NCBI RefSeq assembly: GCF_029910235.1
Contig: NZ_CP112876.1
Span: forward strand, 62,001 to 126,000
DNA from: Pseudanabaena galeata CCNP1313
Lineage (GTDB): Bacteria > Cyanobacteriota > Cyanobacteriia > Pseudanabaenales > Pseudanabaenaceae
Reading direction: 5' to 3'
Length of the DNA: 64,000 nucleotides
Under the pieces are notes generated by a model. That model did not search any database. It was not told where the DNA came from and saw only the letters and a list, made by a program, of their open reading frames with translations. The translations under genes were made by a program, and so were the position numbers. This document shows positions 30,036-58,209 of the stretch, piece by piece. Within the stretch, counting starts at the first letter, position 1; each line of letters opens with the position of its first letter.

Positions 30036-30317
30036 TTATAGAGGCTTCTGAATTATCTCAGCATAAAACCTTTTGGGCTTAAGTCCTGCAATTTTCTCAA
30101 TTAGGCGATCGCCTTTGAATAGAACCACTGTTGGCGCAGAGCGAACACCTAACTTAATTGCCAAGTCTGGCTCTTCAGTCATATCAATATCAGCTAGATA
30201 GAATTTGCCTTCTTGTTCAGCAGCAAGTTGATGGAGCAGAGGTTCTAAGGTTTCGCAAGCACTGCAATTTTGCATAACAAGATCGGTATCGCGATCAGGT
30301 TTCTGAAGGTGTTTCAT
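30036..30317 (-). CDS. Chimeric thioredoxin: CcdA N-terminus joined to thioredoxin C-terminal part
   Basis: 93 residues. MKHLQKPDRDTDLVMQ matches the first 16 residues of the CcdA gene at 59085. From NCSACETL onward it matches residues 32-108 of the thioredoxin at 56163. A deletion between ccdA and trx in a duplicated cluster would make this joint. It keeps the CSAC pair but lacks the first beta strand, so folding is doubtful. It may be a remnant rather than a working protein. Confidence 0.7.
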   Translation of the reverse strand: MKHLQKPDRDTDLVMQNCSACETLEPLLHQLAAEQEGKFYLADIDMTEEPDLAIKLGVRSAPTVVLFKGDRLIEKIAGLKPKRFYAEIIQKPL

Positions 30318-47802: not shown

Positions 47803-47840
47803 TAACTATGCAATAACTATGCAATAACAAGGTGAATTTC

Positions 47841-49013
47841 ATGGCGATCACATTACCAAAAAAAATTATGCTTCTTGGCTCTGGAGAACTGGGTAAAGAG
47901 GTTGTTATTGCTGCCCAAAGACTGGGTAATACGGTGATTGCAGTCGATCGCTATGACAATGCTCCTGCGATGCAAGTAGCCGATAATCGAGAAGTGATTT
48001 CAATGTTAGATGGGGAGTCCCTTGAGGCTGTCGTAAAGAAACATCAGCCTGATTTAATCGTGCCAGAAGTGGAAGCAATCCGCACCGAGAAACTACTCGA
48101 ACTGGAAGCTCAAGGTTATACCGTTATTCCCACTGCTGCCGCAACCAATTTCACTATGAACCGCGATCGCATTCGAGATTTGGCAAGTAGTGAATTGGGG
48201 CTACGAACTGCCAGATACGCTTATGCCAACAGCCTTGATGAACTAAAAACCGTTGCTGCCGAAATTGGTTTTCCAAATGTGATTAAACCTGTAATGTCTT
48301 CCTCTGGCAAAGGTCAATCCGTTGTGCAAAATGCAAATGAACTGGAGAAAGCTTGGGACTATGCTATCGCTGGAGGGCGAGGTGATACTGCTAAAATTAT
48401 TATTGAGGAATTTATCGATTTTGAAGTCGAAATCACCCTGTTAACAATCCGTCAATGGCAGGGGGAGACACTATTTTGTGAAGCAATTGGGCATCGTCAG
48501 GAACGAGGCGATTATCAAGAATCATGGCAACCCGTCGGCTTAACGTCAGTTCAGGTTAAACAAGCTCAAGATATTGCCCGCAAGGTCACCGATAAGCTTG
48601 GCGGTGCAGGGCTTTTTGGAGTAGAGTTTTTTATCACCAAAGATGAAGTAATTTTCTCTGAACTGTCTCCCCGTCCCCACGACACGGGAATGGTTACCCT
48701 CATATCTCAAAACCTTAACGAATTTGAACTCCATCTACGCGCAATTTTAGGCTTACAATTGCTTAGCCCGTCGGCAAGTGCGGTCATTCTTGCCAGCGAA
48801 ACTAGCGCTAACATTTCCTTTACAGGCGTTGAAGAAGCTCTTAAGATTCCTAACACAGAAATTCGTTTGTTTGGCAAGCCAGATTCTCGCCCCTACCGTC
48901 GCATGGGTGTTGCCTTGGCAAAGGGAAAAGATGCTATAGAATCTCGTCAAAAGGCAACAGAAGCTGCATCCAAAGTCAAAATCGTCAATTATAGCAATGT
49001 AAGTTTTGCTTAG
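47841..49013 (+). CDS. purT: Formate-dependent GAR transformylase PurT, C-terminus replaced by a mobile element
   Basis: 390 residues from ATG 47841 with AAGGTGA upstream. This ATP-grasp enzyme makes formyl-GAR from GAR, formate and ATP in purine synthesis. [69 protein letters not shown] and the end [20 protein letters not shown] are PurT motifs. The native protein ended ...KVKIVN-TAA. A 112-bp element inserted in that TAA adds YSNVSFA and a TAG, so 7 residues and the stop come from the element. The enzyme is probably still active. Confidence 0.94.
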
Positions 49014-49103
49014 GAGATAAAACCAAAAAGATGAGTGGCGGCGCTTCGCGCCGCCACTCATCTTTTTGGTTTTGATTTTTCCTATCTATCTCTTGCGTTG
49101 CTA
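48992..49103 (+). repeat. Mobile palindromic element, family A, copy 1, in the purT stop codon
   Basis: 112 bp, TAGCAATGTAAGTTTTGC ... CTCTTGCGTTGCTA, with TA at 48990-48991 and 49104-49105. The central palindrome is ACCAAAAAGATGAGTGGCGG CGC - TTC - complement. Removing it with one TA restores AAT TAA. The second copy, at 55726, has the same length. Confidence 0.92.
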
Positions 49104-49124
49104 TAAGTCCTATGCTATCGAAGA

Positions 49125-49232
49125 TACAGCAATTTACAATCAAACGAACCACAAGAAAAAAACTTAAAAGCTTTGCAAAGCAAAGCTTTTAAGTTTTTTT
49201 CTTGGCTTTGGGTTTGAGCACAAAGCGTTGTA
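49125..49232 (+). repeat. Palindromic element, family E, copy 3
   Basis: TACAGCAATTTACAATCAAA, CGAACCACAAGAAAAA, palindrome of AACTTAAAAGCTTTGC and complement, then TTTGAGCACAAAGCGTTGTA. It lies 22 bp from family A copy 1, in the gap between converging purT and the glucosidase gene. Confidence 0.7.
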
Positions 49233-55614: not shown

Positions 55615-55719
55615 TACAGCAATTGCTGATCGGATGAGCCACAAGAAAAAATCTTGAAAATATTATTTTGCAACATTTTCAGGATTTTTCTTGGTTTGGT
55701 TTTGATCGCAAGTCCCTAG
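55615..55719 (+). repeat. Palindromic element, family E, copy 5, right end diverged
   Basis: TACAGCAATTGCTGATCGGA, TGAGCCACAAGAAAAA, imperfect palindrome, TTTTTCTTGGTTTGGTTTTG, ATCGCAAG. It abuts family A copy 2 with 6 bp between. Confidence 0.6.
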
Positions 55720-55725
55720 TTTTTA

Positions 55726-55837
55726 TAGCAATGTAAGTTTTGCTTAGGACATAAAACCAAAAAGGTGAGTGGCGGCGCGAAGCGCCGCCACTCACCTTTT
55801 TGGTTTTGATTTTTTCTAGATATCTCTTGCGTTGCTA
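55726..55837 (+). repeat. Mobile palindromic element, family A, copy 2, in a thioredoxin stop codon
   Basis: 112 bp with the same ends as copy 1 and TA at 55724-55725 and 55838-55839. The palindrome ACCAAAAAGGTGAGTGGCGG CGC - GAA - complement differs from copy 1 by a paired arm change and a flipped loop. Removing it with one TA restores TTA TAA in the reverse-strand thioredoxin. Confidence 0.92.
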
Positions 55838-56163
55838 TATAAAGACTTCTGAATTGTTTCAGAATAGAACTTTTTAGGCTTAAGTCCTGCAATTTTCTCA
55901 ATTAGGCGATCGCCTTTGAATAGAAGCACTGTTGGGGCAGAGCGCACACCAAATTCAATAGCTAAGTCTGGCTCTTCGGTCATATCAATATCAACTAGAT
56001 AGAAATTGCCATCTTGTTCGGCAGCAAGTTGATGGAGCAAAGGTTTTAAGGTTTCGCAAGCACTACAATGGGGCGCACCAACTTCCAGAAGAATCAACTT
56101 ATCCGATTCTGCTTTCAGCTTCTCAAAAGCAAGACGACCTTGAAATACAACTTGTTCTGACAC
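55816..56163 (-). CDS. Cytoplasmic thioredoxin-like protein, C-terminus extended by a mobile element
   Basis: 115 residues, AAGGAGAAAT upstream. The active site is Cys33-Ser-Ala-Cys36 (EVGAPHCSACETLKPLL) instead of CGPC, with cis-Pro in SAPTVLLFKGD. The native end was ...ETIQKSL-TAA, as in the paralogue at 30036 (IIQKPL-TAA). The family A insertion in that TAA adds YSNARDI and a TAG. It is last in the ccdA-trxB cluster and would pass electrons from TrxB if TrxB were intact. Confidence 0.88.
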   Translation of the reverse strand: MSEQVVFQGRLAFEKLKAESDKLILLEVGAPHCSACETLKPLLHQLAAEQDGNFYLVDIDMTEEPDLAIEFGVRSAPTVLLFKGDRLIEKIAGLKPKKFYSETIQKSLYSNARDI

Positions 56164-56211: not shown

Positions 56212-57359
<1,148 letters not shown>

Positions 57360-58209
57360 TAGTAGTTTTATCAATGGTTTTGATATAGCCTTTTTCATCT
57401 AAATCAATTTGACCTGCAAAAAGCTGCGTATTTGGTGTATGCCCGATCGCATAAAACAGACCACCAACTTGTAATTCAGCAATAGCATGATCTTTCTGAT
57501 CTTGAATCTGAATACTTTGCAATACATCATCACCTTGGGCGCTTATCGGTAAGACTTGCCAATGGATTTGGATTTTGTCATGGCTTAGAACTCGCTCTTG
57601 CATTACCTTAGAAGCACGAAGGCGATCGCTACGCACTAGCAAATGCACCTTACTCGCATATTTGGTTAAATAGAGTGCCTCTTCCGCCGCCGAATCACCA
57701 CCACCAACTACCGCGATTTCCACATTCTGAAATAAGGGATTTGTACCATCACAAATTGCACAGGCGGAAATGCCGTTATTCCAAAATTGCGTTTCCCCTT
57801 CGATATGTAAGCGCTTGGCGGTTGCTCCTGTGGCAATAATCACCGCTTTCGCTTTCACCTCAAGATCGTCAGATGTGATCGTAAAAGGGCGATCGCCAAA
57901 ATCCACTTTGACCACATCATCAGTAATTAGCTTAGTTCCCCATCGCAAAGCCTGTTGGCGCATTTCCTTCATTAATTGTGGTCCTTGAATTCCTTTGGAA
58001 AATCCAGGGAAATTCTCCACTTCGGTAGTGGTCATCAATTGCCCACCTGGTAAACCTCCTGCGGCAAATCCTTCAAACATCAAAGGTTCAAGTTGAGCGC
58101 GAGCCGCATAGATTGCCGCCGTATAACCTGCGGGACCTGAACCAATAATTACCAGTTGTTCTACCATGTATATCTATCCTTGAGATTCTTAATTAATTCC
58201 CAATAGAAC

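Follow-up and report, generated by a model that had tools for sequence, protein, structure and literature searches.

The gene purT of Pseudanabaena galeata CCNP1313 ends in borrowed sequence: its final seven residues and its stop codon are element sequence and not original gene sequence. The element is a palindrome which, very probably, is a non-autonomous MITE related to IS630 that lands at TA dinucleotides, is purged from the bodies of genes, and replaces a stop codon by means of a TAG inherited in its own ends. Two copies lie in the window, i.e., the whole stretch of 64,000 nucleotides that was analysed, and the features at both sites are collected in Table 1.

Table 1. Features of the two genes in the window whose ends are made by the element.
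Feature	Position	Strand	Remarks
purT (formate-dependent phosphoribosylglycinamide formyltransferase)	47832..49013	+	393 aa in current reading; Pfam PurT_C
IS630-type MITE copy	48990..49105	+	116 bp including TA at each end; end A towards purT
Added purT tail YSNVSFA with stop TAG	48990..49013	+	made by element end A
Perfect hairpin in purT copy	49019..49073	.	26-bp arms, 3-nt loop; terminator-like on both strands
Thioredoxin-like gene	55816..56163	-	115 aa in current reading; last 7 residues and stop from second copy
Second MITE copy	55724..55839	+	116 bp; end B towards thioredoxin-like gene
New tail YSNARDI and stop TAG	55816..55839	-	made by element end B
Perfect hairpin of second copy	55753..55807	.	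26-bp arms

At the purT locus, the flanks join without the element as GTC AAT TAA, which reads KIVN followed by the stop codon TAA, and the last eight codons of the present gene are supplied by end A. The Pfam PurT_C match covers residues 314-382 and ends ahead of the added tail; named relatives of the protein are 89-92% identical and belong mostly to Pseudanabaena. The copy runs from TATAGC to GCTATA, and its RNA folds at -73.2 kcal/mol (z -15) in a hairpin whose stem begins 5 nt past the replacement TAG. An initial annotation of this DNA had described a mobile palindrome of 112 bp with a TA duplication, sitting at the end of purT and providing a replacement stop, the seven-residue tail YSNVSFA and then a hairpin. 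The reading frame and the joined flanks bear this out, and the length agrees as well, with 112 bp of element and two TAs adding up to 116 bp. The annotation had also pointed to an element-free purT with the same tail as the case that would speak against it; purT was matched in 21 of 26 genus genomes, the own genome included (E 1e-50), and YSNVSFA occurs in none of the 20 other purT genes.

The second copy acts on the minus strand, where it turns KSL-TAA into KSL-YSNARDI-TAG with the last eight codons coming from end B, and its RNA fold reaches -56.1 kcal/mol (z -11.5). Orthologues of this thioredoxin-like gene were found in two other genomes only (G008 and G005), and both end exactly at KSL-stop, which confirms the empty site. 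The stop codon rebuilt with one TA is the stop of both orthologues found, pointing to duplication of the TA upon insertion. The further claim that the same family had ended a second gene by way of its other end thus holds, in the frame as well as in the empty stops of G008 and G005. A second thioredoxin-like stretch is present at 30039-30272 and is 83% identical across residues 31-108 of the gene in Table 1.

The element belongs to a large family. A pattern made from its two ends, TATAGCAAN{75,105}TTGCTATA, matches twice in the window and in none of 100 shuffles. Its 71 matches in the genome of 5.84 Mb include, among those listed, a few that represent another palindrome family; the reversed control gives no match. 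End A with up to 3 mismatches is found at 121 places in the host genome, and all 26 genus genomes, the own genome included, contain a match to the element at E 0.001 or better, the weakest best E being 6.6e-12. The properties are those of a MITE, i.e., a length of 116 bp, many copies, no transposase gene, and terminal inverted repeats in the form of TATAGCAAYGYAAG-like sequence at both ends. Moreover, of the 126 own copies that score 70 bits or more, 84 are flanked by TA on either side and have no more than one mismatch in either end. No Rfam family matched at the gathering score between 48700 and 56200.

The replacement stop follows from the frame in which such an element would be read. Insertion into TAA or TAG always sets the element end in a single frame (TAT AGC AA...), whose codon 8 is, for either end, usually TAG; across the copies at large, this is the case for end A in 160/175 and for end B in 129/175. 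Since both ends usually have it, a gene that is hit in its stop codon loses its own stop and gains seven residues, a TAG and a hairpin. Where the TA of the target occupies codon positions 2-3, the frame usually closes immediately, at the TAG within TATAGC (167/175 for end A, 163/175 for end B). In 93 of 175 copies, one frame entered from end B is free of stops over the full length of the element (112 + 2 bp make 38 codons); read-through along this frame was considered, and no called gene uses it in the 175 copies.

The likely parentage was traced through an IS630 element of 954 bp in the genome G014, which encodes a transposase with the domains HTH_Tnp_IS630 (PF01710) and DDE_3 (PF13358) and has the ends TATAGCAAAAAAAGGGAGAGATAGGACATAA and TATAGCAAAAGAAGGGATAGTTAGGACAA. 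With the first of these ends, MITE end A agrees at 20/30 positions and MITE end B at 24/30; the means for 197 background TATAGC sites are 13.4 (A) and 12.8 (B). Among these background sites, which pool MITE copies with other sites, 9 reach the same similarity for A and 3 for B (maximum 30/30), and some of those 9 and 3 must be MITE copies. Right ends in G016 are nearer still to end B, with 28/31 at the locus L450 when compared by eye. Transposases of the G014 type are present in 6 of 26 genomes (E 1e-30), over the full query length in G014 and G011 and in pieces in G016, G009 and G020, and more distant matches occur in G016 and G025. The host genome has no match at E 1e-30, so the mover was not identified there. 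TATAGC ends, a TA on both sides, many copies and ends that match IS630 together class the palindrome, as judged from sequence, as a MITE of the IS630 (Tc1/mariner-like) type. Presumably, the palindrome would be moved in trans by an IS630 transposase and joined at a TA, which is duplicated in the process.

The replacement TAG itself points to the same parentage. Inspection by eye found TAG at bases 22-24 in 7/7 ends of the close IS630 group (both ends of L443, and L444, L445, L446, L449 and L450) and in 4/4 ends beside distant transposases of 43-45% identity (L451, L452 and both ends of L453), two of the latter four also stopping earlier; L447 was excluded from the IS630 ends for the MITE-like end A beside its transposase fragment. 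As TAG at this position belongs to the ends of the IS630 group, the replacement stop is a group feature and not an adaptation of the palindrome, which has it in common with the ends of the parent transposon and probably inherited it from them. The ends at L451, L452 and L453 also keep TTAGGACG where the MITE has TTAGGACA, a motif that may thus have long been common to these terminal repeats.

Other mobile elements occur close by. An IS630-type transposon at 56340-57361, with ends TATAGCGGTTTTCAAATGAG, two overlapping reading frames and 7 genome copies, lies inserted, by eye, in an apparent thioredoxin reductase gene next door. It was considered as a source and rejected, as it shares TATAGC but agrees with the four MITE ends compared at just 10 to 13 of 30 places. 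A transposase remnant beside the copy at C1:36817 was likewise set aside, having the look of a chance neighbour. A second palindrome family (CAGCAATT...ATCAAACGAACCACAAGAAAA at the first site) adjoins both copies in the window, at 49130-49230 and 55618-55710, and by eye its edge resembles the TACAGCAAATTCCGATCAAA ends of IS630 in L415, L421 and L439. L438 contains an element that is bounded by TATAGCAATCCGAAATGATT, has a transposase-like gene and is similar to yet another palindrome family of the host (TATAGCAATCCTAAATGATT, C1:1587544). Several pairs of MITE and IS630 may thus coexist.

The purT genes of the relatives bear on the order of events at this locus. Among the 20 relatives, the encoded C-terminus is KII or KIV in 14, KIIY or QIIY in three, KINDFPS in two and TITPFPAKN in one, and the rebuilt purT stop lies one codon downstream of the stop in the 14 KII/KIV relatives, a 1-bp shift being involved. 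Two orders are possible: direct entry into the TAA of purT, or landing 3 bp downstream of the former TAA (compare TAATTA) with a later loss of 1 bp in this TAA that opened the frame, so that the element never sat in a stop codon. Along with the earlier end of these 14 relatives, four of them (G013, G015, G019 and G020) read TAATTG or TAATTA at the stop where the present flank reads GTC-AATTA, in keeping with the second order. However, this route requires the same number of events as the direct one, the present flanks rebuild an in-frame TAA, and the case of the thioredoxin-like gene requires no frame-slip step. We regard the frame-slip order as rather unlikely, and direct entry into the stop codon as the more probable of the two.

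The end of purT has also been entered elsewhere in the genus. In G011 (L218 1412-1507), the gene has another MITE at its end, 96 bp long with ends TACTCCCTTCCCA; without it the gene ends KVTII-stop, and with it the final codon and the stop are replaced by TPFPAKN-TAG. A member of this 96-bp TACTCCCTTCCCA-ended family also lies 7 bases 3' of the purT stop in G020. Thus, the last codons of purT have been entered by two MITE families in two species, the 116-bp family here and the 96-bp family in G011.

The distribution of insertions was determined by a census. Copies were found by profile and kept if both ends lay within one mismatch and both TAs were present; in the own genome the 84 copies mentioned above were kept and the 42 others, which have no intact end or TA, were not. 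Among relatives, 91 of 109 copies were kept, 15 being dropped because an end or TA was missing or the flanks were short, and 3 more because their flanks were shared; they derive from 100 stretches in 12 of the 25 other genomes, among the matches listed, with at most 34 candidates scored per genome. Gene calls came from a home-made caller based on codon usage, applied to the joined flanks after removal of the element, and four own-genome ORFs with a negative coding score were excluded as genes. Background TAs come from 364 kb of host DNA, comprising twenty evenly spaced 15-kb stretches and the window.

In the own genome, 77 of the 84 copies are intergenic, 5 lie in stop codons and 2 in the last three codons of a gene; at the lowest gene-call threshold (4), a 62-aa ORF also counts and raises the number in stop codons to 6/84. 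The 91 copies in 12 relatives comprise 85 intergenic ones, 2 in stop codons (one of them at a weak 45-aa ORF; 1/91 at the highest threshold), 3 in the last six codons and 1 near a gene start. For the pooled sets, insertions per 1000 background TAs, all taken from the host genome, amount to 33.6 in intergenic DNA, 27.9 in stop codons, 14.6 in the last six codons and 0.06 in gene bodies, and five of the six coding-region insertions fall within the last six codons (P about 1e-8). This distribution suggests that copies land at many TA sites and that selection removes the ones in gene bodies, while copies in intergenic DNA, in stop codons and in the last few codons persist; the tail of seven residues would be nearly neutral.

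Within intergenic DNA, the copies crowd towards gene ends. The following counts cover 161 of the 162 intergenic copies, one having no called gene on one side, and again refer to background TAs of the host genome. For 51/161 copies, the nearest gene 3' end is no more than 40 bp away (background 731/4596; odds ratio 2.45, p 1e-6), and 55/161 lie between convergent genes (background 592/4596, p 1e-11). Gene starts are avoided, with 13/161 copies within 60 bp as opposed to 1223/4596 background TAs (p 1e-8). The 3' excess persists inside tandem regions (27/75 within 40 bp vs. 542/2717, p 0.001) and, weakly, inside convergent ones (24/55 vs. 189/592 within 40 bp, p 0.10; 38/55 vs. 318/592 within 80 bp, p 0.03). 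The loss of harmful insertions, as suggested by the distribution, would explain much of this pattern, and the further pull towards 3' ends in tandem and, weakly, in convergent regions may reflect use of the hairpin.

A terminator activity of the hairpin is conceivable, and one explanation goes as far as to propose that purT has adopted it as its working terminator and that such use makes copies accumulate at gene ends. In shape and stability, the stem is indeed terminator-like on both strands and very stable, a perfect hairpin stands near the purT stop in 8/21 loci including this one (by a strict rule, and with less than 35 nt of downstream sequence at two loci), and the tandem and convergent excess described above fits as well. 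However, copies show no orientation bias towards the gene (28/51 within 40 bp), and the loss of insertions near gene starts would likewise lead to crowding at 3' ends. This proposal is tentative and, on balance, doubtful. It is very unlikely that the IS630 lineage, in its autonomous and miniature forms alike, keeps both ends self-stopping in the frame of TAA or TAG insertions, whereby hits in stop codons would be rendered harmless and MITEs would rewrite gene ends throughout the genus.

The least credible explanation, which the counts contradict and which we consider very unlikely, is a family that has stop codons as its targets, or that is specifically kept there, as a mobile cassette of stop and terminator. 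In its favour, both window copies sit in stop codons, an in-frame TAG stands at codon 8 in 7/7 stop-codon copies, and the 40 bp next to gene 3' ends and the space between convergent genes are crowded with copies. Yet the 7/7 (3 via A, 4 via B) is unremarkable, with a chance of about 0.23, as a codon-8 TAG is common at large, and the orientation of copies is unbiased, as stated above. At the middle threshold, 251 background TAs lie in stop codons and 4818 in intergenic DNA, and over the three thresholds stop codons make up 4.2-5.3% of non-coding plus stop TAs in the host and 3.2-4.0% around the relatives' copies. Against the host share, 5 of 82 non-coding-or-stop copies of the own genome in stop codons represent no excess (P 0.26-0.44), and setting aside the two copies of the window, which had prompted the question, leaves 3 of 82 copies of all classes. 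Favoured targets have A/T at -3 and +3, T at -2 and G/T at +1, a context that TAG stops fit well (mean weight 1.6) and TAA stops poorly (0.6). With weights for this context, which were derived from the same copies, the expected stop share becomes 4.4%, and 7.4 stop-codon copies are expected where 7/169 are seen in both sets. Relative to the 40 bp behind genes, stop codons even hold less than their TA share (7/58, P 0.01), and the combined class of stop codons and last six codons accounts for 12/174 copies vs. 11% expected (P 0.05). The initial annotation had implied a specialisation for stop codons and had called for a genome-wide count against TA content and gene avoidance; this count gives 5/84 here and 2/91 in relatives vs. 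about 3-5% expected from TA content, and the excess at stop codons was not found. Stop codons are struck no more than other harmless sites, and the purT case is ordinary.

Comparable elements have been described in other bacteria. ERIC and RU-1 of enterobacteria are likewise palindromic and MITE-like, with terminal TA and TA duplication, and occur as fusions to the 3' ends of genes; for RU-1/ERIC in such a position, the normal stop is described as apparently lost (Delihas, 2007; PMC2759123). They differ from the present element in sequence and host, and their tail is longer, spanning residues 463-496 (PMC2759123). In Coxiella burnetii, several copies of QMITE1 and QMITE2 extend into the ends of genes over 1 to 50 bp, and one QMITE presumably supplies 33 C-terminal residues of a protein; sequence and host are again different, and a link to IS630 is absent from the description (PMC5896051). 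QMITE2 is mainly found in 3' untranslated regions, and a review calls terminator roles conceivable (PMC10969869). The RUP of Streptococcus pneumoniae, a MITE of 107 bp, resembles the present family in its TA target and in being thought to be mobilised by an IS630 (IS630-Spn1), and has stops in all six frames; unlike the family described here, RUP is reported to be intergenic and inside IS elements, and its terminal repeats differ (PMC2229807). Among cyanobacteria, the MITEs of Anabaena sp. 90 are mostly intergenic and hairpin-forming, but 15 of 147 are reported from ORFs that are disrupted, and no IS in the genome of this strain matched the ends of these MITEs (PMC3542288); Nezha (cited in PMC10969869) is another cyanobacterial MITE, also mostly intergenic.

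C-terminal tails made by MITEs are thus already in print, for ERIC/RU-1 and for the QMITEs of Coxiella. Among the open-licence papers listed in literature searches, judged by titles and the openings of abstracts, none presents a stop-codon census for a bacterial MITE. The present analysis adds a measured survival gradient for a bacterial miniature transposon, which runs from intergenic DNA via the stop codon and the last six codons to the gene body. The striking replacement stop is common to the ends of the parent transposon and probably inherited from them. Caution is advised with short C-terminal tails in the annotations of this genus, as these can be the ends of transposons.
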